From assembly GCA_003194525.1 (NCBI GenBank), contig NBIV01000307.1:16722-80721 (forward strand): 64,000 bases of DNA. The letters are read 5' to 3'. The position numbers and the translations under genes were made by a program. Shown piece after piece: positions 23,290-62,601 of this stretch (within the stretch, counting starts at the first letter, position 1; every line of letters begins with the position of its first letter). Below the pieces are notes generated by a model. That model did no database searches. It was not told where the DNA came from and saw nothing but the letters and a program-made list of their open reading frames with translations. Source of the DNA: Gracilariopsis chorda. Taxonomy: Eukaryota; Rhodophyta; Florideophyceae; Gracilariales; Gracilariaceae.

Positions 23290-26200
23290 ATGCCTCAATC
23301 TCAGCCCAGTGCTTCAGGCGATGCCACACGTGAACAGAACCGTCAACGTACTGCGGCAAGACGTCGAGCAGAGTCCAGTGAGCAACAGGCAGAGAGGAGA
23401 TGTCGTGATAGAGAGCGAGCAGCCATACGGAGGGCAAATGAAACTGAGGAACAGCTTGAAGCACGAAGAGCGGCTAATAGGGAACGTGCGCGAAGAAGAA
23501 GGGCTAGAGCTTCTGCCCCGCACACTGATGACGTTCGTGAGGCCGACGGTACAGCCACTGCTTCGGCACGAGCTTCAGAGACGCCAGATAATCGCACAAA
23601 TCTTCAGGCAAACGATCGTGACGCCCATCGTGCTGCAAAGCAACAGGATGACCCCGCTGCTGAGCATTCTCGCCATCAATCTGAAATAACATCTAGACAG
23701 GCATCGCGAGAGCTCGAGAGCGCAGCTCAGAGGCAACAGCGTCTTGAATCTCAGCGCGAGAGCCAAAATGTGGCCGGCAGATTGTTTGACTCCGATGATG
23801 TCGACGACAGCGGCTACATGGACCTGGGTCTCATGAATGTGGAGTGCCGCGTTTGCAAGGAACTGCATTTCAAACAGGACAGGGTTGTGAGCAGCTCCCG
23901 CTCGCAACCTCTTTTCTCGCAGTGCTGCGCAAAGGGGCATCTTAGCTTCCCTGCGCTTCTGGAGCCTCCGCGTCTTCCTCGCCAACTGCTGACTGCGACT
24001 GGGCCCCGAGAAAACCACTTTCGTGTTGAGATCCGTGCTTACAACACATTTATGTCTATGGCTTCCGTCAAGGCAAACTGGGTGAGCCGTGGTTCAGGAG
24101 ACTCTACCTTCAATCCTACGATCACCATGCAGGGACAGATATATCACTACATGGGTCCGCTCATTCCCGCTCAGGGTGTCCAGCCCGCATTTTGTCCTTA
24201 TAAATTCATGAAACCGACTATGACGCGCAGTCTGCGAGGCTAGCGGGGTTGCTGCCCCGCCTCCAACCGGAACTGCTGTCTCAGTTGGCTGCCATGCTGC
24301 ACACGGGGAATGCATACGTGCAGATATTCTGCAGCCTGCACGAGTGGGCTATCACCGATACGCCAGCAAATAAGTATCAGATCGTGATCCATGCTGATAG
24401 ACGGCCCCGTGGCGACCATGTTTGTCGCAACAACGGGCCCGAGGCGTCGCAGGTAGCCGCCATTATTCCAGGGAATGAGGACGGCGAGATTGGGACGCGC
24501 GATATTGTTGTGTGTAGGCGTGGAGAGCTGACTGTAAATGGTGATGAGGTGCTGGGCACTATCCCCGTCAGTCACAGATCGTACGATTCCTTGAGCTACG
24601 TTCTTTTGTTCCCATGCGGCCAGGACGGATGGCACCCTGAGAAGAGGTATTGCCCACCAAAAGCCTCGCGAGAGAAGAAGGTGATTCCGCTGATGTATTA
24701 TTCGTGGCAGCTTTTCGAGAGACCGACCGAGCTCAGTACGATTCTACTCAGCAAACGGCTCTTCCAGAAGTACATGGTTGACCAGTTCTGCAAGGTTGAG
24801 TCGGAGCGTTTGTCTTACTTACGACACAACCAGGACAGACTTTGAGCTGCGGAATATACATCCCTGCTGGAGAGCCTGGGTGACTCTCTGCTGGGCGTGG
24901 ATGAGGCAGATGCTGTTCGTGCTGGAAGACTGTTCGTGTTGCCTTCCACATTTGTAGGAGGTGACTGATACATGAGACAGCAAATGCACGACATCATCGC
25001 CATATCCAACACCATTGGGTACCCCGATATCTTTCTCACGATGAAGTGCAATCCGAACTGGCCTGAGATCAACAGAGCGCTGTTAGATGGTCAGCGCGCT
25101 CCCAATTGACCCGATCTTTGTGCTCGAGTGTTTCGTCTCATGATGAAAGCCTTGATGTCGTTTGTTATCGATGAACAGTTCTTTGGAGCCATTCTTGCTC
25201 ACTTCCAGGTAATCGAGTTCCAAAAGCGAGGCCTACCGCACGCGCACATTATCTTCTTCCTCAACAAAGATGCAAAGCAGCAGCTCCGAGACCCTGCTCA
25301 CATTGACGAGCTCATCTCACCTGAGATTCCTCCTTCTTCCGACGCCACCTTACAGGAGTTGGTGCTCAAGCACTTGATTCACACTCCGTGCGGTGCAGGG
25401 AACCGGTCAGCGCTGTACATGCGCGAGCTGACCTGCTTGAAGCACTTTCCGAAGCCGTTTCGCTCCGAAACTGCACGGCTTGAGATTGAGTACTACATCA
25501 GCTACCGAAGACGCGCTACTTCCGAGGTCGGGGTGTCTGTGGAACAAAGTGGCAGGGTCGGCCGTCGACAGGGCGTAGTGACGTTGGACTATTCGTGGGT
25601 GGTTCCACATTTCCCAGAGCTTCTCCGCCGGTTTGCATGCCCCATCAACGTTGAGCTATGCGTATCGCGACTTGGCGGTATCAAGTACCTCTTCAAGTAT
25701 GTGTGCAAGAGTTCCGACAGAGTCACCATGGAGATTTTAGATGAGAACGGACGCCATGACGAGATCCAGAACTTCCAGGACGAACAGTACGTGTCAGCCT
25801 CCGAAGCAGTGTGGCGGATGCTTGCGTTCGACATTGTCGATCGCAATCCACCCGTCGTGCGGCTTGAAGTACACTTGAAAGATCACCATACGGTGTTCTT
25901 CCGGGAAGGCGACGAGCACTCTGCTGCTAACAGAGAGGGGGCAGGAACCAAGCTGACTGAGTGGTTTGTGGCCAACCAAAAGTACCCCGGGGCACAGCAT
26001 CTCCCTTATGCCCAGTTTTCGAAGTACTTTACTTGGAACCAATCAAACAAATGCTGGAAGCCGCGTTCATGTCTCCGACGTCGTTCGGTGTCTCGAAGCC
26101 AGCCCACCTCTTCCTCAGCGGCCGCTGCAGCAGCCGATCAATACGACATCACTGGCAGCGGTGCGCATTTAGTTGGGCGCATTTACACTGCCAGTCCACG

Positions 26201-28173
26201 AGAGGGTGAGGGGTACTACCTCCGCTTACTCTTGACCCACACAGCGGGAGCTACTTCCTTTCAGCATCCCCGCACCGTGGATGGTCAGCAGTGTGGTAGC
26301 TTCAGGGAGGCCTGCCTCAAGAAGCTTCTTGCCGACGACAGCGAGTGGAGACGGGCACTACGCGAGTCCTTTCGCTCCTCATTTGTTCCGCTCTCTCATA
26401 TGTTTGCCACCATCTTGCTTTACTGCGAGCAGTCTGACCCCCGTTCTCTGTGGGAGCAGCATCTATCGATGTTCCTGCAGGATATACGCGTTCGATATCG
26501 CGGCATGATGCATGCACTGGCAGACGACGAAAGAGCCAGCTCTTACGTTCTCTTAGAAGTGCAAAAGGCATTGCAAGAAATGGGTGGCCCACCGGCGTCT
26601 CTGTCATCGTACGGTCTTCCGTCACCCAGAACTTACCGGAAATGCGCGCTCCAGCTCGGTCTCCGCAGCAAATCAAGTCGGAGCTGAACGACATTGTGCA
26701 AGCTGCCCTCCCTCTCTTCAATGAGCGTCATCGTCTGGCGTTCAATACTGTCGTGGGGGCCATCTTTCCTGGCGTGTCCGCGGAGAGCTTGCAGGGTCTT
26801 GGTTGTCCTTCTACGCCAACGCAGCCAACCACTCGCGTCTTCTTCTTGGATGCTACGGGTGGAACCGGGAAGACCTTCCTCTCCAAGGCAATTCAGGCCA
26901 CGTTACGCCTTCTTGGCAAGTCCTTCCTTACGGTAGCCACGTCTGCTGTAGCAGCCATACTCCTTGAGGGCGGTCGGACGGCCCACTCCGTGTTCAGGAT
27001 TCCCATCCCAGCCACCGCTGAGAGCAGGTGCAACATCCCGGTCAACTCGCACCTGGCCACTGGGATGAGGAACGTCGACCTCATTATCTGGGACGAGATC
27101 GTAATGTGTCATCGCTTCTGCGTCAAAGCCGTAGACCGCACTCTCCGTGACATAACGCGCTCGCAGCTCCCCTTTGGAGGCAAGTTCGTATTGCTTTCTG
27201 GCCACTTTCGAAAGATTCTCGCCGTTGTTCGTGGCGGCTCTCGATCAGTGATTGTCAACGCATGCATCAAACGCTCAAGTCTCTTTTCTCACTTTCGCAT
27301 CTTGAGATTGACTGAGAACATGCGCCTTTCTGCGCTCCGTCGAGACTCCACAGTGACATAGGAGGCACTGCAGTTTCCAAACACGCTCTTGCGGATTGGA
27401 GAGGGCAGACTGCCAGGCACTGTCCCGCCAAAGCACCCCTTTACCCTGCCAGAGTCCGTACAATGTGTGGAGTCGTTCCGCACCATGGTCCGTATGGTCT
27501 TTCATGGTATCGCTCAAAGTTACATAGATGCGGATTGGCTAAAGTCAACGGTGATTATAACCGCACAAAACAATCGCTTACCAGAGCTCAACGACTATGT
27601 AGGCCACATGATACCTGGAGCGTATCGCACGTACCTCAGTGCGGACAAGGTGAGCGACAACGACGGTGCCGCGCTGCAGTACCCTGTCGAGATGCTCAAC
27701 ACTCTGACTGCCGCTCAGCGCTGCCGGACCACCGCCTCAAACTCAAAAAGGGCTTTGTGGTTATGCTCCTTCGCTACTTGGATCCCTCAAACGGCCACGT
27801 CAATGGTGCCATCTATACCGTAGAAGACATGCAAAGCAACGCACTGTTTCTTCGGCTCGCTTCTGGAGTAAATCATGGCAACGCAATATGCCTGCCGCGC
27901 ATGCCCTGTGGACTTGGAGACGACAAATTTCCGGTTCCCAAATTCACTCGCACCAAGTTCCCAGTACGTGTCTGTTTTGCCATCACTACCAATAAAGCAC
28001 AGGGTCAGTCGTATAGTGGTCGCATCGGACTGGATTTGCGTGATGGCTGTTTCACGCATGGCCAGCTGTACGTCGCCCTTTCTCGGACCACCAACCCGTC
28101 CAACATCGTGGCATGTCTCCCCGCTGGTAGCACCTCTACCACTAATGTAGTGTACCCTGAAGTTCTTTCGTAG
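23290..28173 (+). pseudogene. Helitron Rep-helicase (RepHel), broken
   Basis: ATG at 23290 opens an Arg/Glu-rich N-terminus (ERRCRDRERAAIRRANET), then a Cys-bearing N-terminal Helitron domain (CRVCKELHF; YNTFMSM; GQIYHYMGPLIP). The HUH nuclease motif is GLPHAHII (25230-25250), and the two-tyrosine motif is YLFKYVCK (25686-25709), both intact. A PIF1-like helicase follows with Walker A DATGGTGKT (about 26850-26876), Walker B IIWDE, and motif VI HGQLYVALSR near 28050. Breaks are frameshifts near 24205, 26630 and 27725, TGA at 24843, 24966 and 25107, and TAG at 27359. The last frame ends with TAG at 28171-28173. The enzyme would nick and unwind DNA for rolling-circle transposition. Confidence 0.85.
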
Positions 28174-30511: not shown

Positions 30512-33500
30512 TACCGACGAAGATACCTGTCTCGGAGGTTCTCGGGATAACAGACCCTAAGGGGGGGGAGGAGACCGCTCAATTGACCGCTCAATTCGGT
30601 GATGGTAATGGACAACAACCTCACGAGGTGAGTTCGGGTACCGCACCCCTCGAAACCTCGGAAGTAGGCTACCAACTGGTACAGAACAGAAGAATCCTGT
30701 TGAGGAATTAGCAAAATTGGACTTGACTCATGTCCCAGAATCCCATCGGGAGAAGCTCAGGGGCATGCTGAAAGAATTCACTCCCATGTGGGATGGTTCC
30801 TTGGGAAAGATAGGAATTACAGAGCACCTCATCGAACTCCTTCCGAAAGCTCAGACTGTTTCACAACACCCTTATAGGGCTGGCCCGAAAGCACGGGAAG
30901 AGGAGAAATCTCAAGTCGAGAAGATGTTACGCGCTGGCGTCATTGAGCCTGCTCAGTCCGCTTGGGCGTCGCCAGTCGTGCTAGCTCCAAAACCGGATGG
31001 ATCGTGGTGCTTTTGTATTGACTACCGGCGTCTCAATACGGTCACGGTTAAGGACGTTTACCCAATTCCACGAATGGATGAATGTATCGACTCCCTTGGG
31101 GATGCTAATGTGTTCACTACCCTTGATGCAAATTGGGGTTATTGGCAAGTTCCTATCAGGAAAGAGGACCGAGAGAAGACGGCTTTCGTATGTCATCAAG
31201 GATTGTTCCGATTTCGGAGAATGCCTTTCGGGCTTACGAACGCTCCTGCTACATTTCAAAGGGCAATCGACATACTGCTAGCTCCATTCAAATGGAAAAC
31301 GTGTCTTGTTTACCTCGACGATATAATCGTTTTCTCCAATAACTTGGATGAGCACTTATCCCACGTTCGGGAAGTAATGAAGGTACTGCGCGACGCAGGT
31401 ATAACTCTGAAACTCAAGAAGTGTGAGTTCTTTACCGAATCGGTGAAATATCTGGGTCATATCATCCGTCCCGGAAAGCTTTTGATCGATCAAGTGAGAG
31501 TCAATTCCTTGAAGGAAGCGAAGCACCCAACTACTCAGACTGAGCTGCGTTCCTTTGTAGGATTGTGTAACGTGTACCGTCGTTTCGTTCCGAACTTTGC
31601 GGAGATTGCTACACCTTTGAACAGGTTACTGACCAAAGGTCAACCAGTCAAACTGAACCCTTTCGGGGACACGGAGTCATCCGCTTTCACGGAATTGGTG
31701 AACGCCGTGACGTCCGCACCGATTTTGGCATTACCCACTCTGGGTCTTCCATACGAAGTCGATACCGACGCTAGTGCTAACCAAATTGGTTGTGCGTTGT
31801 TTCAAACCAATGAAGATGGTGAATGACACCCCATCGGGTTTTGGTCGCGATCTCTAAACGTGCATGAACGTAATTATTCCGTCTCGGAGGAGGGGTGTCT
31901 CGCCGTTGTGTGGGCACTCTCTACTCTACGACATTATTTGATGGGTGTTCACTTTACCGTACATACGGACCATTCCTGCCTCCGTTGGCTTATGGAAATT
32001 ACCGAACCGTCGGGCCGGTTGATGCGTTGGCGTCTCCGACTGTCGGAATTTGATTTCGATATTCTGTACAGGAAGGGTACCCTGAACACTCAGACAGATG
32101 CGTTATCCCGTTTGGGAACCAATTCTGAAGCACTTCCGACTGCGGACTTGGACATACCATGTTTTATGGTGAAAGACTTGGATGACGGAGCCGAAATCCT
32201 TTTGGATGATATATGTGACGACATACTCGTCACGAGAGATGTAGAACCACCTATTGGTTCTTTTATACCCATTACTTCCGAGGAGTTAATACGTGAGCAA
32301 CAGACAGATCCGTTCTGTACTCAGATCTGTGCTCGCGTCAATGGAGGATGTCAGATACCGTTTTCGGTTAACTATCAAGGCTACCTTGTCAGGTTTGTTA
32401 ACTCAAACCCACAAATCGTGGTGCCTCACTCGCTACAGCAGCGAATTCTTCACTTGGTACATTATGTGAAGGTTGGCGCTCATCCTGGTGGAAGAAAACT
32501 GTATCTCACATTGAGAAGGGATTTCTACTGGCCAGCTATGGCATTCGACTGCTACGCGGTGCGCCGTTCCTGTACAGGATGTGCGAAGAATGACGTTAAG
32601 CTACGCAAATACTCTAAAGAGTTAACGTTATACCCTGCCAGGGCACCGTTGGAATTCGTGGCCATCGATCTCCTCGGAGAACTGATTAGAACTCCCCGTG
32701 GGAATCGGTACCTATTGGTAATCACAGCCCGATTCTCCAAATGGGTTCGGACAGTTCCGCTCAAGCGGATTACGGCAAGTATTGTCGCAAAGGCGTTCGT
32801 CACCCATTGGGTATTCGTTTATGGACCACCCGTACAGGTGCTTTCCGATAACGGACCTCAATTCACGTCGAAGTTCTTTCAAGACGTTTGCCGTATCCTG
32901 GATATAAGGAATCTGTTGTAACAACGTACCACCCTCAGGGTAATGGTCAGGTGGAAAGGTTTAACCGAACGATGCTTAAAGCATTACCGTCCTTCGTTGC
33001 TGATCGCCCGAAGGATTGGGACCTGTACACAGACGCAATCACATATGCGTACAATACCCAAGTGCATAGGGTTACGTCTTTATCACCATTCGAACTGGTA
33101 CTGTCGCGTTTACCGCCGCCGGTTTCTATCGAAACACAGCCAACACTGGCAACTTACCCTTCGCCGGTTTTTTATTGCGAGTACTGGAAAGGATGGCTAA
33201 AGAAGATGGTTCCGGTTGCACGGAAAGCTATGGAAAGGCGCAAAACGCTTACAAGCGTAACTTCGATCAGAAGATTCGGAGCCCTTTACCGGAAATTCGG
33301 GCGAACGATTTTGTCTTCCTTGGAAAGGAATACTACAATCCTAAGAAGGAAGGTCACCATAAGCTTTCTCCAATCATGGATGGACCGTACCGTGTGGTAT
33401 CAGTCGCACAGGACACTGTCGTGTTGGACATTAAATCTCAACACGAGAAGATATCACGCGACCGCGTTACTCGGGCACCCACTCCAAATCTGGAAGTGTT

Positions 33501-45745: not shown

Positions 45746-46456
45746 CTAGTCCGAAGCGGAACCAGCAGCTGTGTCGTTCTTAGAATCTCGTTGGGATGTC
45801 TGTTTAGTATCCTTTTGAGCTTCTTGTGCAGGCATTTCACTTCCCGAAGCTTCATTTGCAGATGCCGCGGGGTCCTCAGCTCCCTGAGACTGATTTTCGT
45901 CTTTTCGATTAGAGTCTGGCTGGGGCGGATTGACAAGTTCAGCCTTACCAGGATCAATGTCCGCAATCCTGTCCTTTACAATCTGAGGCACAGGATCATC
46001 CCACCAAATCGGACCACCGTCACCGGAAGCGCAACTAACACATCCAGTGAGAACGTTAGGCAATATCTGGCCGCGGCGTTGCTTGAGCGGAGTTCGACAA
46101 ACGCCAACTCCGCCGAAATTCATGTTACTCTTTGTAACAACCTGTAAACTGCACAAGCGTTCGTATCCCGGTCTCCTCCACTTTGCAATCAACTTGCCGT
46201 CTGCAATCTTCTCCTTGATGAGATAGTCCAGAAGCTTTTTGGAAATTTTGTGTTGTTTGAAGTGCATGTCAAAGAGGTAGCGGTTTTTCTGATAGTGAAG
46301 CTTGTGCATGGGCCATGCTATTTCATTTCTTCTCTTATCGTCTGGTGGGGCGTTGAGGGCTTCGCGGGTTTGGGCTTCGAACTCTTCCAGGGTGGGCAGC
46401 ACTTTTTCTATGCCTGGCGGCGCTTTGCGGGTTTTCTTGATCAGGCGCCAGGACAT
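45746..46456 (-). CDS. BUD31: BUD31/G10 spliceosomal protein, with zinc cysteines lost
   Basis: 236 residues from the ATG at 46454-46456 (MSWRLIKKTRKAPPG); an upstream in-frame Met 21 codons earlier is not needed. The family core spans 1-145: PTLEEFEAQTREAL, NEIAWPMHKLHYQKNRYLFD, ISKKLLDYLIKEKIADGKLI, AKWRRPGYERLC. BUD31 is a core splicing factor of the Bact complex. Homologues are about 144 residues with about nine Cys in three zinc sites. Here only C102, C120, C139 and C142 remain: the second Cys of the LCCLRC pair region and several of the CxC and CTHCGC clusters are replaced. A ~90-residue acidic, low-complexity C-terminal extension (SQGAEDPAASANEASGSEM) is absent from usual homologues. 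Still clearly the orthologue. Confidence 0.9.
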   Translation of the reverse strand: MSWRLIKKTRKAPPGIEKVLPTLEEFEAQTREALNAPPDDKRRNEIAWPMHKLHYQKNRYLFDMHFKQHKISKKLLDYLIKEKIADGKLIAKWRRPGYERLCSLQVVTKSNMNFGGVGVCRTPLKQRRGQILPNVLTGCVSCASGDGGPIWWDDPVPQIVKDRIADIDPGKAELVNPPQPDSNRKDENQSQGAEDPAASANEASGSEMPAQEAQKDTKQTSQRDSKNDTAAGSASD

Positions 46457-47022: not shown

Positions 47023-47511
47023 ATGACGTCCCGCAGTCATAACCAGGGCGCTACCCTACCCATCGGTCATGATCCCACCCCCCAACGCACCATCCCGACA
47101 GCCGTAGAGCTCCGCGAAACCTATCATAACCGTCTCGACACCGAAATCGATCGCGCCATGACGGCCTTCCAAGATCTTATCGCCTCGTGTGAAATTAGCG
47201 ACCGTACAAGTAACGCTCGAGCCGAATATCAGACCCAAGTCGAAGCAGCCAATCTGGCAAACTCAGCTGACCAGCTGTTGAGGCTTATCTCCGAGCTGAA
47301 GATTGCCGCCATCACCCAAAACATACCAGAAATCAAGTCTGAAAACCGCACCATGCAAGTGTTCTTCGACCAAACCGGCCGGAAGATGCTCAAAGAGATC
47401 CTCACTTTACGTGATGAAACCGCTAAGACGCTTCGACTGTTGGAGAAGCACTACTACGAAAGTTCTACGACTTGGTATCCGGATCAGCCCAGCCCGGAAC
47501 CATCGCAATGA
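47023..47511 (+). CDS. MED22: Mediator complex subunit 22 (MED22)
   Basis: 162 residues from the ATG at 47023 (MTSRSHNQG). The MED22/Surf5 helical core covers residues ~28-140: ELRETYHNRLDTEIDRAM, a family start (LLQSYNKRL in animals), RAEYQTQVEAANLANSADQL and LLRLISELKIAAITQNIPEI, and an ending EEYYxS-like EKHYYESS. MED22 sits in the Mediator head and pairs with MED11 in a four-helix bundle that contacts general transcription factors. Length is close to the family (about 140 in animals). A short Pro-rich tail (YPDQPSPEPSQ) follows. Neighbour BUD31 is divergent and the AMSH-like gene follows on the same strand 185 bases on. Confidence 0.85.
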   Translation: MTSRSHNQGATLPIGHDPTPQRTIPTAVELRETYHNRLDTEIDRAMTAFQDLIASCEISDRTSNARAEYQTQVEAANLANSADQLLRLISELKIAAITQNIPEIKSENRTMQVFFDQTGRKMLKEILTLRDETAKTLRLLEKHYYESSTTWYPDQPSPEPSQ

Positions 47512-47696: not shown

Positions 47697-48497
47697 ATGC
47701 CGCTCGAGGACCTTTTCGACCGATCGCCCGTTCTGCCCCCAGATCCCAATATATCCCTAGCCCGCTACCTCCACACAATACGTCAAAACTATCAAGCCGC
47801 CATCACTCAGCCCGATGCACAACGTTCCGCTTTGTTGCACATTCGTCTGCTACAACTCATATGCAAGACTCTGCCAACCCATCCAGAGTACTCGTTACCG
47901 GAGAACAAGCCCTTACTGAAAGAACTCCGTTCCATCGCGCACAAAAGCTTCGAGGCTTTGGAAGTGTTCGACGAACCTGTACACCACCGCGAACCATCGC
48001 GAGTTGATATGTCCGCTTCTCTTCTTGACCTTTTCGAACGTATAGCTTCGGACAGCACAACGCGTGGCCACTCTACAATCGGTTTGTTGGGCGGAAGAAT
48101 GTTGCCACAACCGCATGTAGCCGCCTTGGTCATGCCTTCTCAAACATGTGGCACAATATGTTCTTCATTGCGCTATGAAAACGATGTATCTCAATTGATG
48201 GAAGTCAAGGACCTGCTATGTTTCGGACTGATACACATTAGTCCAACACAACCAGAGATGGGCCTGCCCGTAGAGCTGGAAAGCTATCTGTCACACTATT
48301 CTAATAGTGTTCCGGAGGCGTTTGCTATCGTAATTGTGCCCGCTTCTGAGAAACGCGTACGTTTCTACTCTTGTGGGAATGACGGTAAGGTTGGTGTTGC
48401 ACACCATGTCGACGTTAGAAATGATGGCGTACCCAGCTTTAAACTGTACGACCTGCGGCCCTTGGCTATCGCCCGTGACGAGCAGCAGGAACGATGA
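47697..48497 (+). CDS. AMSH-like MPN protein lacking JAMM catalytic residues
   Basis: 266 residues, ATG at 47697. Residues 18-65 match the USP8-dimer/MIT-like region of AMSH proteins (NISLARYLHTIRQNYQAAI, then KTLPTHPEYS). Residues 120-235 match the AMSH MPN+ domain (GLLGGRM; RYENDVSQLMEVKDLLCFGLIHISPTQPEM). AMSH enzymes cleave Lys63-linked ubiquitin on endosomes with a zinc held by E...HxH...D. Here the first His is kept (H180), the second is Ser182, the conserved Ser is Leu190, the Asp is Glu193, and the upstream Glu is Ser126. The insertion loops with the Cys/His structural zinc are also absent. It should be a catalytically dead member acting by binding; whether an active paralogue exists elsewhere cannot be seen. 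Confidence 0.8.
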   Translation: MPLEDLFDRSPVLPPDPNISLARYLHTIRQNYQAAITQPDAQRSALLHIRLLQLICKTLPTHPEYSLPENKPLLKELRSIAHKSFEALEVFDEPVHHREPSRVDMSASLLDLFERIASDSTTRGHSTIGLLGGRMLPQPHVAALVMPSQTCGTICSSLRYENDVSQLMEVKDLLCFGLIHISPTQPEMGLPVELESYLSHYSNSVPEAFAIVIVPASEKRVRFYSCGNDGKVGVAHHVDVRNDGVPSFKLYDLRPLAIARDEQQER

Positions 48498-48755: not shown

Positions 48756-49913
48756 TTATCTTCTCTTACGGCGCTTCTTAGACTTGGAGGCCTTCTTTGG
48801 AGCTTCCGTGCCGTTAGATCTGAAGCCGTCGGCAACATCCAGTCGCGAAGAAGGAAGAGAAGAAGTTTCTGATGTTGTTGCGGATGCATCGGAGGGAGTG
48901 GCTGCCGACGCTGCAAGGTCGGGGAATCGGGATCGGATAAAGAGGGTTTGTGCGGTAGTGAGCAGGTTATTTGTTACCCAGTACACTCCAAGACCCGACG
49001 GTACGTTGAGTGCAAACCATCCGATGAGAAAGGGCATAAACTTGAGAATGGCATTTGCTTGCTGTTGGCTGGGATCCTGCGTTTGAGGAGACATGACGCG
49101 TTGAGAAATGACTTGGGTGAATACCAGAATGGTCGGGAGTACAAGGTAACAGGCGGCATCATGCCAGCCCACGGGCGGAGCCCCGTTTTGGAGCGGGAAC
49201 AACCATGTGCTGATTCCTTGTCCAGTTTTGCTAACCGGGCCTTGCAAACTGGGCAGCCAGAGGAAGGACTCGTTGAGCAGGTTATCAGCGGCAAGATTGA
49301 GCACAGAACGATACAAAGCAATCCAAACTGGAATCTGAACGATAACTGGTAGACAACCAGCCAGCGGGTTGATCTGCTCGTCTTTGTAAAGTTGGGCGGT
49401 CATCTGATTCATAACAGCGGGGTTATCTTTGTAGTCGGCCTGAATTTTCTTTAGACGAGGCGCGATAGCCTGCATACGCATCGTGGACTCCATCTGACGG
49501 AAGTTGAGAGGGAAGGTGACAGCCTTGATGATTACGGTGAAAAGGATGATGGACACACCGTACGGGCCAGGAACTCCAGCAGCGGAAAGGCGGCCATGCA
49601 AGTAAACGATGGCGTTTTCAACGAAGTTGAGGAGGGAATCCCACCAGCCGGACTTCTTGGCCTCGACGGCGGTTTCCGTAACAGTGGTTGAGACGTCGGA
49701 AATCGCAGTTGCGGCGTCAGAGAGCAGTAACTGAATCGAGTTAAGATCTATGTGGGGCGTGACTGCGAAGGCTTGCGTAAGATGGTGCGCTGTGTGTGGG
49801 TCTAAGGCCATGCGCGTGGTAGTCTGGGGACGATGAGAGGCACGGCGCGAGGAAATAGAGACGCCCTGCGTTGTGCGCAGTGGCAGCGTGGTGGGAGTAG
49901 CGAAGGCGAACAT
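48756..49913 (-). CDS. ALB3: ALB3/YidC/Oxa1 membrane insertase, plastid targeted
   Basis: 385 residues, ATG at 49911-49913, one exon. The N-terminus MFAFATPTTLPLRTTQGVS is Ser/Thr/Arg-rich with an early Phe, as in red-algal plastid transit peptides. The insertase core at about 115-345 has the hydrophobic segments GPYGVSIILFTVIIKAV, LAGCLPVIVQIPVWIAL, ACYLVLPTILVFTQVI and KFMPFLIGWFALNVPSGLGVYWV, and the family loop FPLNFRQMESTMRMQAI. The C-terminus is basic (KKASKSKKRRKRR), as in ALB3 tails that contact cpSRP43 or ribosomes. It integrates light-harvesting and photosystem proteins into thylakoids. A cluster of acidic residues before the first segment is variable in the family. Convergent with the AMSH-like gene, 258 bases apart. 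Confidence 0.92.
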   Translation of the reverse strand: MFAFATPTTLPLRTTQGVSISSRRASHRPQTTTRMALDPHTAHHLTQAFAVTPHIDLNSIQLLLSDAATAISDVSTTVTETAVEAKKSGWWDSLLNFVENAIVYLHGRLSAAGVPGPYGVSIILFTVIIKAVTFPLNFRQMESTMRMQAIAPRLKKIQADYKDNPAVMNQMTAQLYKDEQINPLAGCLPVIVQIPVWIALYRSVLNLAADNLLNESFLWLPSLQGPVSKTGQGISTWLFPLQNGAPPVGWHDAACYLVLPTILVFTQVISQRVMSPQTQDPSQQQANAILKFMPFLIGWFALNVPSGLGVYWVTNNLLTTAQTLFIRSRFPDLAASAATPSDASATTSETSSLPSSRLDVADGFRSNGTEAPKKASKSKKRRKRR

Positions 49914-53593: not shown

Positions 53594-56077
53594 TTAGTTC
53601 CCTTTCGATCCCCTTGTGTTCAACTCCGACATAAACTCCGATATCAAAAATAACATTGTTTGCATACTTTCCACTTCACCTTTCATATCATCGTCAAACG
53701 TCCTCCCCTCTCGATTTACGTTGAGCAGCATATCTACAGCGTTCGACACGACAAGTCTCGCTTGTTTCGTATGCTCCTTCACATCCGATACGGAAACATC
53801 GCGACCCCGTTTAAAAGCCGAAGCTTTCTTCTTATATGCCCTCATCTCCCGATCAATTTTCAGTTTCACTACCATAACCTCGCCTCCGCCATGAGTCTCA
53901 CTACTACCGTCCGCCCATTGTATAAGCTTAAGAGTGCTTTTGATCTTCGACAAAACGGTCTTGTGGATCTTGCGCTGCATATCTTGTTTTTGCCTTGAGC
54001 ATGGAGGGGCATGCAATCGTATTATCGTCATTGCGGCGTGATAATAAGTCAAGCTTGTTAGCACGGCATAACGCCCTTCGGAATTAGTTTTGAGTGCATT
54101 GGTGGACGACACCGCCAGCTCCAGCACATCACAAAGACATCGTATGTCTGTCGTGGACTGAGAATCACCAAGAGCCGCAGCATTCCTCGAAATAAAGGCG
54201 GCTATTGCTGGATATGCAGCCAATTCTTGCTTGTCAAAGTAAGTCGCAGTGCAGTTACATACTAACTGAAGTTCAGCGGAACTCATTCCGGAAGGCTTTA
54301 AACTATTTAACGCACAACACAGCTCTTCCAAGTGCACAGGCTCTTTGATATGTTCCAGTGCCATATCTGTTGTGGTTTTCGAATCAAATAGGTACGGAAG
54401 AAGCACATGGGACCATGTGTAAACATCACCACGGTTGCTTTGCTCCTGAACATACACTTTCATTGAAGCAAAACGCTTATCGACTTCTTCAGGTCCTGTG
54501 AGCATAGTGAATACATCCTGAACTAATGCTGTCTGTTGCTTGACACCGTGCTCATTGCCTTGCGACAAATCGGATGTACTGCTCGTATGCAGATGAACAG
54601 AGAGAGAGGAAAGTAGGCGTAGTGTTACTTGATCTTTTGCCGTGCCCATGCCCGTCATATCCTTGCTGCCTAGCATCTCTAGAGATCTCTGCATTACATG
54701 AGACAAGCATCTTTTTGACCCATGGCGGGTATAGTGCATAGCCAGCAGTTCGGTTGCCAGAGGAATCCAGCGACGTTCAGCATGATTTGAATTAAGAGCA
54801 ATTGATAGACGAAGATAAGCCACAACCTCAGTTAGGAGACGGTCCTGTGCAGGTTCGTCGAGCGCATTGTCATACAAAGCACACACGCTCTGATTTGAAA
54901 TATGTGCGCAAGCCGGGTTCGGTGAGCTGGTCTGACAAAGAAGACTGTTCACGATACGAAAGCGATCATCTCTGTCCTTACGGAGTCTGCATGCCGCCAC
55001 AATGTTGCTCGCCACCACTGAACTAATCGTATCAAGAAACACGTTATCGGATTCCATATCTCGCAGTGATACAAGCTCCGGGTAGGCGGGGTCGCACAGT
55101 TGGAACAACAACGGAAGCAGCGATTTCCTGAACCAAGTCCAGCGCCATTCTCCTAAATCGCTGTGAGGTGTGATGTCTCCTTCTTGTAATCGATCAGGAC
55201 AAGATTCTGAGCGCATAACGTGAACAACAGCCAGTATCAGATAAGAATGAACAGAACCAGGTGTGCGAAAGCATTCATCAAAGAACTTGATCTTGTAGAA
55301 AGACTCAACACTTTGCTTAAAGAGAACCGAAACTCTGTGCAGGCTATTCACTTCAGGAAGGCAGTGCAAAAGCCTTATTATGCATCGCAAAGTCAGGCTT
55401 AGATATGGGCAAACTTCGGTTCGAATGTTTTCAAGATTAGATGAGTCCAGTAAGTTATCGAACATCAAAGTATGCGACGCAAGAGCGATGAGCAGCATAC
55501 TGTTCGCAAGCATTTCGCCATAGCTGTCAACGCAAGCGCCGTCAAAATTGTTCAGCTTCGCAAAGGCCTTCGCGCACTTCGCAGCATTGATGCAATAGAA
55601 CTTTGTTATCCTGACACAACGACTAACATATGCTGGGTCTGGGCGTTTGGGTCCATTCTGCAAGGACAGCACCTCGATAAGCATCTTTATAGCGCTGCGC
55701 AAAGCGCAAGTGATTATTTGTACCGCCACTGCTGGGGAGGAGGACGCATCTTCTCTTAGAAAAGCAGCAACCAATGCCTTCCATGCGGCGGAGGAAAGAA
55801 CCAGAACGTCAACGGCAACTTCAAGGATCTTGATTGAAGCGCTGAGTATGCAAATGTTCAGCAGGCCAGTAATCGCGGTAGGGGATGGGTGTTGGAGCAA
55901 ATCGGAGAGAACCGCTTTGGCCGCGTTGACGGAAGACGGTGTCGCTCCGCTTGGTAGAGCTGCATTTTCTATTATGCGTGAAACAACTGAGATCGCCTCC
56001 TCTACGCTGACGTCCTCATGACTGGTGGAGAACCTTTCCAGTTTCCGAACATCCTCTTCAGAAACTGCGGAATTCAT
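53594..56077 (-). CDS. unrecognised 827-residue helical protein
   Basis: ATG at 56075-56077, stop at 53594, no intron visible. The sequence is almost all predicted amphipathic helix with many Leu/Ala/Val/Ser (AITGLLNICILSASIKILEVAVDVLVLSS is one of several such stretches), no transmembrane segments, signal or catalytic motif. This pattern suits a HEAT/ARM-like solenoid scaffold. A basic Lys/Arg cluster occurs near 735-760 (REMRAYKKKASAFKRGRD), possibly a nuclear signal. Length and intact frame in a gene-dense island, with host-like composition, argue for a real gene. No family can be named from the sequence alone. Confidence 0.75.
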   Translation of the reverse strand: MNSAVSEEDVRKLERFSTSHEDVSVEEAISVVSRIIENAALPSGATPSSVNAAKAVLSDLLQHPSPTAITGLLNICILSASIKILEVAVDVLVLSSAAWKALVAAFLREDASSSPAVAVQIITCALRSAIKMLIEVLSLQNGPKRPDPAYVSRCVRITKFYCINAAKCAKAFAKLNNFDGACVDSYGEMLANSMLLIALASHTLMFDNLLDSSNLENIRTEVCPYLSLTLRCIIRLLHCLPEVNSLHRVSVLFKQSVESFYKIKFFDECFRTPGSVHSYLILAVVHVMRSESCPDRLQEGDITPHSDLGEWRWTWFRKSLLPLLFQLCDPAYPELVSLRDMESDNVFLDTISSVVASNIVAACRLRKDRDDRFRIVNSLLCQTSSPNPACAHISNQSVCALYDNALDEPAQDRLLTEVVAYLRLSIALNSNHAERRWIPLATELLAMHYTRHGSKRCLSHVMQRSLEMLGSKDMTGMGTAKDQVTLRLLSSLSVHLHTSSTSDLSQGNEHGVKQQTALVQDVFTMLTGPEEVDKRFASMKVYVQEQSNRGDVYTWSHVLLPYLFDSKTTTDMALEHIKEPVHLEELCCALNSLKPSGMSSAELQLVCNCTATYFDKQELAAYPAIAAFISRNAAALGDSQSTTDIRCLCDVLELAVSSTNALKTNSEGRYAVLTSLTYYHAAMTIIRLHAPPCSRQKQDMQRKIHKTVLSKIKSTLKLIQWADGSSETHGGGEVMVVKLKIDREMRAYKKKASAFKRGRDVSVSDVKEHTKQARLVVSNAVDMLLNVNREGRTFDDDMKGEVESMQTMLFLISEFMSELNTRGSKGN

Positions 56078-56625: not shown

Positions 56626-59600
56626 TTAACCCTTTAAGGTTACACGTCTCCAGATCTCTCTAGTACAGTAAATCTAGTAGTGAATGCCGCGTATCTACAG
56701 ATCTCCAGTATTATCCCCGTGCTCACAGAGTGAGCATTTTAGTTCACCCAAAAGTGGGGTGAGTTTTGGAGAATTTTGGCGAATTCTCGGTTGCAGAGAG
56801 AACGTCCCTCGACGACGGGTGATGTTCATTCTGTGTGTCTCCCAGATATTCTCTAACCCTCTCCGACGGTAAGCCCTATTCCTTGACGATCTCGAGAGAG
56901 CATTTGCTTCCGTACTCGAAGACTGACCAGTTATGTCTCATGAACCAAATCCCATTCTGCCTTGCACAGACGCTCTTCGCAATGCAGAAACCGGCAACCG
57001 AACACTTTCAGTCGACAACTACACTGCAGAGGTTGACAGAATTTCTGTGTACGCCCATAGCCGTTCTGGAGAGATGCCTGCAACGTCGCCGCAGCGTTCA
57101 CAAGGTACCTCTGGCCAGGTAGCCGACAGTGTTACGGGGATGCAAACAGCGACTGTTGCCAATGAATCTCCAGGAGGTCAACACCAACACGCACTAATAC
57201 GTTGTAATCGGTCGGCCTCAGAGAACACTAACCCCGAAAACGTGAACGGCAACTACACCAGTGAGTCTGACAAGAAATACAGCGCCACAGAAAGTAGTTC
57301 TGAACAATATGATAACTTTGAATCAAATTTGTTTACTCCTTCAGATATGGTTATCGATGACAATGAAGTACAAGATTTGCACACCAATAATGCACACCAG
57401 CACATACCCAATGCGCTGGAGGCCACACAAATTGCTACAGAAGACTACTGGGCCGGCTTGTTTGTGGAACCAAGTGAGCTTGTGAATGGTGCTCTAGAAC
57501 TTGAAGGGAGTGCTACAGATGAGGGTTCATCTACGCCGATGTTAACAGCTGCACAGCGCAGTGATGCTCAACGTGTTGGCGGTTTAAGGGGTTGGAAGTA
57601 TGCGGACGCGTTTGGTTCTGTCGAACTTTTTCTTGATGATGCTGATGGTCTTTTGGGTACTCGTTTTGTGCAGGAAGCTAATGCTGTTGTCGAGAAGGTC
57701 AAACGAGAGGTACGAAGAGCTCGAAATAAGACAGATGAAATTGATGAAATGACGATTTCGCGATTGGATGTGCTCAACATTTTCTTGCCTGTAAGCGTAC
57801 TCGAGAAACTCAAATGGCATGTAAACGGTGCTCTCTCAGAGAGACGTATCGAGCAAGCAACAACAGAAGAGCTCCGTGGATGTATAGTAGCACATGTGCT
57901 AGCTGCATCGTACGTGGTCAGTGTTTCTACCATGACTTCAAGGGATCAGAAAGACTTTTACTTTCAGACTGGTATACAAGGCAAACGCTACAACGAAATA
58001 TGGTCGGCATTTAGCGGTACGAAGGAACTACGTCAGTCCTACGAGGAGCATGGAGCAGGATACTCAAACAAGCCAGTACAAGGAAATCAACTGATTACGG
58101 AAATGGAGCAAGACCTGGCTGGTGTAAACAGAAATTTGGTGTACGTACCAGGACACACGATATTCAGCCTTGATGACGATCATCAGCGTTTACGGTCTCG
58201 TGCTGTAACGCAGCTCACTAACCTTTCCCACATAAACAACCCTGCTAAAGCACTTGGGCCTGTGAATAACGCTCTTTGTTCGGCATTGACTTCGGCATTC
58301 ATTGCAAGTCACCACTCAAGACCAGGGGAGAAAATGATTGATGTCTGGGAGCGGCTTGTGCAACTAGTTCAGGGCGCAGCAACACGAGGCTCAATTCAGG
58401 CCATGGTGGATGCAATATTTGCGGCGGATCGTGGATATAACGGAGCCGAACCCATTAACTTTATCAACGACAGACTTGGTGCGACAGGAATCGGTACGCA
58501 CAAGCGAAGTCTTGATTACCCGTTTGTTTTTGGGGAGGGTCCGGTGCGGAAAAAGCACAAGGGCATGGTGGTACAGGAAAAAGGGTGCAGAGCGGTGTAC
58601 AGTGCAACGCGATCAGCAAAGGAGAAGTCTGGGAGAGAGGTGTAGGCCATGGTTTACCGTGAGAGCTTCTCAGGCCGAGTTGCCTCAGTGTATCATAACA
58701 ATCAGAAGTTGTTCGGAGCAGATCGGTTCACATTGATCCCAAAGACAGAGTTCACTTGACGTTGTCTAACGGAGGAAGACATTCGGGACTTGAACTTCGT
58801 GTATTATGTTGGACAGGATAATGAAGGCCATAGTCGTGGGCCAGCTGCTCACTCCACTCGGACATGCCCCTTATATGTTTTCTTTGCCCTGAACAGAGTA
58901 GAGCAGTATACCATACTACAATCAGAGGATCCCGGATGGTTTCTTGCGCGGGCATTTCGGTTCACATCTAGGACGACTCATGGTTTTCTTACAGCTTTTT
59001 GTACAGACTTTGAAGAGAGTCTTAGGTGTGCCGCAGAAGGATTGAAAGGAAAGGTTATTATGCAGGGCGCAACAGCGTTACCGACAGAGAGAGACGCTGC
59101 CGAACAGATACTACGAAGTAAGTGGAAAGAGGTGATCATTGTTTTTGGAATGCGGGAAACGAATATTAATAGGGATGAGAATGGCGGAAATGAAGCAGTT
59201 CAGCAAGTAATGGAGGCAACAGCGGACACTTTGCGTCTCCTACGGAAGGAAGAATTGCTCACAATTCTTCGGAGAGTAGGGCAGCGCCAACCCTCATCGT
59301 TTCTTAAGCAGCAATTAATTGACAAAGTTCTAGACCTACAGAAAGCGGTAGCAGATGGATCACTCACATTATCGGTTCCAGCACAAGCGGCGCCAGAACT
59401 GAGTGAGACGCAGCAATGGGCGTTTCGTACGGAAACGTTTCGCAAACGGTTGTTTGAGGCGTCGCTTGGAGCATGGTTTATGAAGCCTTTGACTGTTACA
59501 TCTGGAATGAAAGAAGGATCTGAGAATGAAAGCAAAGTATTAAAGCTGCTCCCAAATTTCTTCGCAAAGAACCTTGTGTCACGAGGCGAAGCATTCCAGG

Positions 59601-60452: not shown

Positions 60453-62601
60453 ATGGTCCAGACTCGAAGTCAGTCGAGTTCCGGACAACCCGGTCCCTCT
60501 GCACAACCCTCGCCGACGCAGCGGCTTGGAACTTCGGTCGAAGCCGGGAACCGCCTTTATAGGCAAGCCGTACGATCAAGGGCCCGATCAACTGGCGCCA
60601 TCCCAGCAGAGGCTGAAGTACCCGCTCCGGAAGCGAACATGGCGGCTAACGCCGCAGGAACCTCCACTGAGGACAAGTTACGCACAGAGGTGCAACGACT
60701 CCAGAAGGAGTCCGACTCCCATCGAACCCGTCTCACGGAAATGGAATTGCAGATTACTGCGTTGACTGGTGCCTTGGACCGCCTGCGTGTGGAACACCAC
60801 GCCTTGGCGAGCCGAGCCCACGATCCGCAGATCACGGCTACTGTTCGGACACTCCGAGAGGACCTCAATCAGGTCATGGAACGCCAAGGCAATGCCTCCG
60901 GGGTAATATCGGGACTACCCGTTGACGTCGAGGAAGTCCTCACCCGGGTCAACCCTCGCCTTGAGAGGCTGGAAGCAGCGGTACACACGCAGAGTGCTGC
61001 TAACATCCCGCTCGAGACGGAGGTGGAACGACCCACACCCGTGGAAACCCGTTCGAAGAAGTCGAAATCGAAACGTGGAAAGATGCGGAGGTCCGCCTTG
61101 AATTCAGATTCGGAAGATTCCGAGGAATCCGAGGAGAGCCGATCAAGTTCAGAAAAATCTGAAGAGGAATCGTCAGAGGAATCTTCCTCTGACGATGACA
61201 CTCGTAAATCGAGTAAGAAATCTAAGCACCGCGGAACATCCGCTTGGGTACGCCGCAAGAGAGGCCCGGCAAAGAAGGGACTCAAGGTGCTACCTTGTAC
61301 TAATCCGCTTTATCGGAGAATTATAGACTACCGTCTGTATCGTTTGAAAATACGCAAACTCAAGCGAACGAGTCGCGAAACGGGAAGAGTTAAGGATCAG
61401 ATCAAGAGACTGAAGATAGGAATGAGTGATCTCAAGTTCGACGGGAAGGACCCGATCTTAATCTTTGATTTCCTTTACCGGTTTGTGACCGAGGCAGACA
61501 TGCTTGGTATGAGCGAAGCGCAGGCTTTCGTGGCTCTACCACATTTCTTGACAGGGTTTGCCCTACAACAGTATCGAGCAGTGAGCGGCTCGCTCACGGT
61601 CGACGAAGGTGGAGTCACCAACTGGCCTGAGGGCGTGCAATATCTCCTGCGAAGTTACGCAACCTCCAATGCCAACCGCGAGGCTATCCTCACCCTTCGG
61701 GATGTAACCCAGAAGCCTGGAGAAAAGGAGGTAGAATACAGCTCAAGGCTGAATAACGCAGCCACCAGGTGCGGGGAACGTGCAATCCACGGATGAGAAG
61801 ATGACGCTATTCGTCGATGGGTTAGATCCAGTGATCAAATCGTTGGTGGCTCGTCAGCGAGCAAAGCATGCCAGCATGACCTTTTTGGAACTCGTCTAAT
61901 ATGCCCAAGCAGAAGGGGATGCGGTCCGTGCCCGCGGACAACAGCGCCGTACAACGGCATTCGTAACGCCCAAGGACTCACCGGTTCGTTCGGATAAACC
62001 AAAGGCCAGAGCCCTATATGCTGAGACCGTCGAGGATTCTCGGTCGTCATCCCTGATGCCACGGGACCAAAGCCACACGCTGGAAGAAGCGTTTCATTAC
62101 CTGGATTATCCAGACACCTCAGTTCCGACGACGGAGTTGCCAACTACAGATACCCCTACGGAGGAGTCCGAGCTCCTCCTAGCTGATATCAGACGTCAGC
62201 GTCAGGCTGGAGTGGTTCCCCCACAAGGCGGGTTCACGCCCAGTAAGCCTGGATGGGTGGACCAACGCGGAAATTACCGCTCAGCAGCTGCATTTCGGCC
62301 CCGCCGAGAAGGGCTCATCTGCCACGTGTGCTACGGGAGGCACCACTTAGCAGCGGAGCGTACTCTACCTGCTCGAGATTTGGAACGAGTTATCTCGAAT
62401 TATGAGTCACTGACAGACGCTGAACGCAGCAGAGTACCGGCCACCATGTATTGGAAAGCCAAGGCGTTCGTCGCCGGTGACCCGAACCGCGTGGGCGGAA
62501 TTCCGACGACCCAGAATGTGGAGCATTCTCAAGCCGGACAGATTCGCGGCCCGCCCGCAGTGGCCATAACGGCATATGCTCCGAATAAGTCGGAAAACTA
62601 A
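60453..62601 (+). pseudogene. Gag of element 2, interrupted
   Basis: ATG at 60453 (MVQTRSQSSSGQPGPSAQP). A coiled coil (TEVQRLQKESDSHRTRLTEM) is followed by a Ser/Glu/Asp-rich acidic tract (SEDSEESEESRSSSEKSEE), a basic segment, and a capsid-like core (FLYRFVTEADMLGMSEAQAF; YLLRSYATSNANREAILTLR). The frame breaks near 61775 (its own stop is TGA 61794-61796), resumes in another frame (LFVDGLDPVIKSLVARQR), and meets a TAA near 61898 before continuing to TAA at 62601. The zinc knuckle CHVCYGRHHLAAER has its last Cys replaced by Arg, unlike element 1. Same architecture as element 1 gag. Confidence 0.75.

Follow-up and report, generated by a model that had tools for sequence, protein, structure and literature searches.

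AMSH is a ubiquitin-chain-trimming enzyme of endosomal sorting, usually described as an ESCRT-linked K63 deubiquitinase, and the human protein is about 424 aa long. Rfu1 of yeast, which has no MPN domain, carries an N-terminus that we take to resemble that of AMSH. In AMSH-LP the zinc ligands are H347, H349 and D360, the base is E292, and the Ins-2 segment touches Gln62 and Glu64 of the proximal K63 ubiquitin (excerpt of PMC9313428). The MIT domain of AMSH binds 10 of the 12 human ESCRT-III proteins (excerpt of PMC9477494), the MIT domain of AMSH3 competes with SKD1/Vps4 (excerpt of PMC12051064) and the fission yeast Sst2/AMSH has been found on endosome-like spots (excerpt of PMC2935449).

The MPN-minus scaffolds, including Rpn8, CSN6, eIF3f, Abraxas and Abro1, have MPN homology without the JAMM motif; as described in the available part of PMC9313428, the Ins-2 segment of MPN-minus members is extremely short, some of them have a scaffold role in complexes, and these scaffolds belong to complexes of several subunits that include an MPN-plus partner, whereas members of the AMSH branch cleave without such partners. 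Non-catalytic regulators of the endosomal deubiquitination step also exist, as exemplified by Rfu1, which inhibits the endosomal deubiquitinase Doa4 (excerpt of PMC7653365).

Locus and family assignment

The AMSH-like gene considered here belongs to the red alga Gracilariopsis chorda and was analysed in a window of 64,000 nucleotides, by which the whole stretch of DNA is meant. The gene (47697..48497, plus strand) is complete and consists of a single exon with an ATG start, 266 codons and zero internal stops; its product of 266 aa is shorter than human AMSH. Upstream of the ATG the frame stays open for 41 further codons with no in-frame Met. The gene lies on the right side of the window, where genes are dense, flanked by Med22 (47023-47511, plus strand; PF06179, E 4.9e-12) and, on the other side, by an OxaI/YidC-type gene (48756-49913, minus strand; PF02096, E 6.3e-51), and genes for BUD31, a kinase, HSP90 and a cation efflux protein, each formed by one ORF, lie close to it; a Pfam family is absent for 4 of the 10 ORFs examined around the gene.

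Other features of the window were recorded alongside. The C-terminus of the BUD31 splicing factor (45746-46456, minus strand) runs about 90 residues past the Pfam domain, and ORFs of 827, 570 and 447 aa at 53594-56077 (minus), 56933-58645 (plus) and 60453-61796 (plus) have no Pfam match at E<=0.001. The transposon domains found are confined to the left part of the window and the cellular genes to the right part: overlapping ORFs with Helitron-like N-terminal and PIF1 helicase domains at 25128-27361 (plus) represent a Helitron-type transposon, and reverse transcriptase, RNase H and integrase over two adjoining ORFs at 30717-32921 (plus) represent a retroelement with a Ty3/gypsy look.

The family assignment is due to the MPN domain core (residues 105-230; 48009..48386, plus strand). 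In a phmmer search against PDB chain sequences all 14 distinct matches at E<=10 were AMSH-LP, STAMBP or Sst2, with a best E of 1.4e-9, and spanned these residues, so that among PDB sequences at this threshold the domain is nearer to AMSH than to other MPN families; identity over the aligned part is 36/124 to AMSH-LP and 33/115 to STAMBP. The comparison covered AMSH/STAMBP, AMSH-LP and Sst2, plant AMSH1-3 being left aside. As the AF2 model has low confidence over the MPN part, the MPN fold is assigned from sequence homology. As in AMSH/STAMBP, AMSH-LP and Sst2, the domain appears to follow an MIT-like N-terminus, a putative MIT/USP8-dimer-like helical bundle of about residues 1-93 (47697..47975, plus strand). 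The N-terminal 113 aa gave only two PDB matches at E<=10, both to the MIT domain of STAMBP and both weak (E 0.53 and 0.54), and in the list of fold matches VPS35 equals or exceeds STAMBP, all entries being below about 13, the level asked of helical bundles. Pfam assigned no family to the protein at E<=10. The bundle seems to be kept. The STAM-binding motif, a further difference from the three known proteins, was not found by the pattern PX[VI][DN]RXXKP.

These data agree with an earlier note on this DNA, which had described an intact reading frame in a gene-dense region and an AMSH-family MPN region; its description of the USP8-dimer region as recognisable stands as far as the weak PDB sequence and fold matches go, Pfam being silent.

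The JAMM columns and the Ins-2 segment

In contrast to AMSH/STAMBP, AMSH-LP and Sst2, the AMSH-like protein has lost catalytic and zinc residues of the JAMM motif. The alignment with AMSH-LP, which has one gap at residue 140/141, one at 200 and none between, places Ser126, His180, Ser182, Leu190 and Glu193 in the columns of E292, H347, H349, S357 and D360, the E292 column being read from the mutant chain 2znv, where this residue is Ala. In particular, Ser126 (48072..48074) replaces the catalytic Glu, His180 is kept and followed by Ile181 and by Ser182 in place of the second His (48234..48242), and Leu190 and Glu193 are located in a stretch (48264..48281) that also contains Glu195, aligned with H362 of AMSH-LP; all lie on the plus strand. 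The motif ExnHxHx7Sx2D is not intact, four of its five residues being replaced. The earlier note had listed the same four replacements, with His180 as the only residue kept, and the PDB alignments confirm this list; the case that it named against itself, motif positions aligning elsewhere in the protein, was not seen and is rejected, since no HxH occurs anywhere in the 266 aa. A sequencing error behind the loss of the motif is rejected as well, because the four codons differ from those of the expected residues by at least 8 nucleotides (minimum distances of 3, 2, 2 and 1 by hand count).

The isopeptidase chemistry has probably been lost, with the general base Glu changed to Ser, a zinc ligand His to Ser, the motif Ser to Leu and the Asp ligand to Glu. 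Judged by its sequence the protein is an MPN-minus protein, that is, it has an MPN domain without the JAMM motif, in common with Rpn8, CSN6, eIF3f, Abraxas and Abro1.

The Ins-2 region, between the AIVIVP strand and DLR, counts 36 residues (48342..48449, plus strand) and appears about 16 residues short, compared with the approximately 52 inferred for AMSH-LP from its chain length of 178 if that chain ends at DLR. The non-catalytic second zinc of AMSH-LP has H362 among its ligands. The segment that in AMSH contains Ins-2 and the second zinc appears to be shortened. The C-terminal 65 aa alone had no match in the PDB. A shortened Ins-2 segment fits the short Ins-2 of the MPN-minus members, as far as these are described in the excerpt of PMC9313428.

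MPN genes and ESCRT proteins in the genome

The search for a second, active AMSH, a check suggested by the earlier note, was carried out in six frames, exon by exon and without introns, on a draft assembly of 91.3 Mb in 1081 contigs, and none was found by the JAB and Prok-JAB profiles, the self-search or a DNA pattern. The JAB profile gave nine matches, eight of them over the cut-off, and missed the AMSH-like protein itself; none of the nine reads as AMSH. Rpn11 (L002) and CSN5 (L003), both with an HxHx7SxxD motif, Rpn8 (L005), Prp8 (L009) and Npl4 (L010; below the cut-off, E 0.0098) were named from sequence, the last three from sequence only, and eIF3f (L004), CSN6 (L006) and eIF3h (L008) from PDB matches. 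The ninth, L007, is a BRCC36/MYSM1-like JAMM protein whose closest PDB match is BRCC36 (E 1.8e-7), Rpn11-like and CSN5 chains matching too; its resemblance to MYSM1 is our assumption. L007 has the MPN domain in common with the AMSH-like protein and, unlike it, keeps HSHP and the following S and D (by eye). At L007:1006-2136 (minus strand) nine rather than seven residues separate the second His of HSHP from Ser (HSHPDETFTTEPSRVD), the locus being BRCC36-like or MYSM1/MPND-like.

Prok-JAB detected L007, Rpn11 and CSN5 again and one match below the cut-off (G000:C199, L015, E 0.0025), which was dropped owing to 2 stops and a Q run in 90 codons, its score being perhaps due to a GWHSH that arose by chance. 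Against its own genome, the full-length AMSH-like protein (E<=0.001) and its MPN part (E<=10) matched only themselves, and the DNA pattern HTHP[TS]Qx[AG], run without a positive control, had 0 matches. The AMSH-like protein is the only AMSH relative detected in the genome by the six-frame search of the draft assembly. Viral contigs and genome contigs, a collection without eukaryotic relatives of the alga, contained no relatives of the protein; the DNA pattern GWIHTHP[TS] had 0 matches in the viral contigs and a single match in the genome contigs (L016, on a Bacteroidia MAG contig), which was rejected as chance, lying on the minus strand opposite a 203-aa plus-strand ORF and in no ORF of at least 80 aa.

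The genome also encodes proteins of the ESCRT setting: BRO1 gave two matches and Snf7 eight, all over the cut-off, and UEV four, two of them over it. Two Snf7-family loci about 10 kb apart on G000:C119 (L019 and L020) have identical last 120 residues, so that either the gene was recently duplicated in tandem or the assembly contains one locus twice. USP8_dimer of Pfam matched neither the genome nor any control and is uninformative; VHS likewise had no match in genome or control, which is not evidence of the absence of STAM/ESCRT-0. Phycobilisome linker proteins gave seven matches, all over the cut-off, as fits a red alga. Since the MIT-like bundle seems to be kept and Bro1, Snf7 and UEV proteins are present, the AMSH-like protein is plausible as a putative ESCRT binder.

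Alternative readings and proposed role

An active AMSH may have been missed, being split by introns, outside the assembly or too divergent, so that the AMSH-like gene would be an extra pseudo-paralogue; the exon-by-exon search of 1081 contigs, the failure of the JAB model on the AMSH-like protein itself and the uncontrolled pattern leave room for this, but the same model picked up nine other MPN genes, the MPN part matched only itself and the pattern gave no match, and we consider this reading unlikely. Even less probable is a pseudogene in decay or an assembly error, in which a once-active AMSH gene would lately have lost constraint. Four of the five active-site residues have changed, and the codon score of the gene (0.017 bits/codon) is lower than those of six neighbouring ORFs (0.039-0.251), which trained the table, and of Med22 (0.11), outside the training set. 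However, the other five frames score only -0.19 to -0.09, and both the N-terminal part (0.041) and the MPN part (0.001) exceed their two other forward frames, which in the MPN half score -0.18 and -0.195. Moreover, the frame is open despite the nucleotide differences in the motif codons, and the protein has both its N-terminal part and the DLR at its C-terminus. Neutral drift was simulated with the present ORF as stand-in start and no indels, which favours decay, at 8 drift levels. The probability of an open frame multiplied by that of change in all four codons reached at most 5.5e-4, at 0.2 substitutions per site, and multiplied by that of at least 8 changed nucleotides at most 1.5e-5, at 0.5 per site, where few of 4000 runs kept an open frame. 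As these products are so low, relaxed decay is unlikely, and selection on the AMSH-like protein, judged from one sequence rather than from dN/dS, is the simpler reading. Within one genome, the open coding frame, the simulation and the search for an active AMSH support the retained pseudoenzyme that the earlier note had proposed.

With regard to function, the protein might still be an enzyme if its metal site were of another make-up, formed for instance by His180, Glu193 and a new ligand such as His125. The kept His and the conservative change of the Asp ligand speak for this reading; with the catalytic Glu and the second His lost and no HxH in the protein, it is hardly credible. A dead MPN domain might instead still bind ubiquitin and, as a reader, shield or deliver K63 chains at endosomes. 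In favour of this, the surroundings of the active-site loop are partly kept (PTQ, V-L, PEA and AIV), with 8/21 identities over residues 176-196, and the E292A mutant of AMSH-LP was crystallised with ubiquitin (2znv; excerpt of PMC9313428). However, after PTQ the Thr-Ala-Phe of AMSH-LP is replaced by Pro-Glu-Met, and the reading is weakened by the apparent shortening of the Ins-2 flap, the contact with the proximal K63 ubiquitin in AMSH-LP according to the same excerpt. K63-chain reading by the MPN domain is therefore possible but rather doubtful, and less likely than a role as ESCRT-III adaptor.

The favoured reading, which we hold to be reasonably probable, is that an MPN-minus AMSH has been retained and works as an adaptor tethered to ESCRT-III, or as a competitor. 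Like that of AMSH, the N-terminal MIT-like bundle would bind ESCRT-III subunits by their tails, and it may be in competition for ESCRT-III with Vps4 and further MIT proteins; the dead MPN domain would be a protein-protein scaffold that recruits or restrains another deubiquitinase at endosomes. Compared with the MPN-minus scaffolds of multi-subunit complexes, the protein would be peculiar in belonging to the AMSH branch. By analogy with Rfu1 (excerpt of PMC7653365), it would regulate the endosomal deubiquitination step without catalytic activity. Both retention and the adaptor reading are based on one genome. Only tentatively can this be extended to a red algal lineage without AMSH activity, whose sole AMSH would have turned into a non-catalytic ESCRT-III adaptor controlling an endosomal deubiquitinase; regulators like Rfu1 would then have arisen twice, by independent routes.

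No description of an AMSH pseudoenzyme was found in titles and abstract openings of the matching open-licence PMC papers. The existence of a genome with a dead AMSH as its sole one would demonstrate that keeping the tether and the MPN fold can pay off even without the chemistry, and would offer a natural separation-of-function case for the roles of AMSH apart from cleavage.
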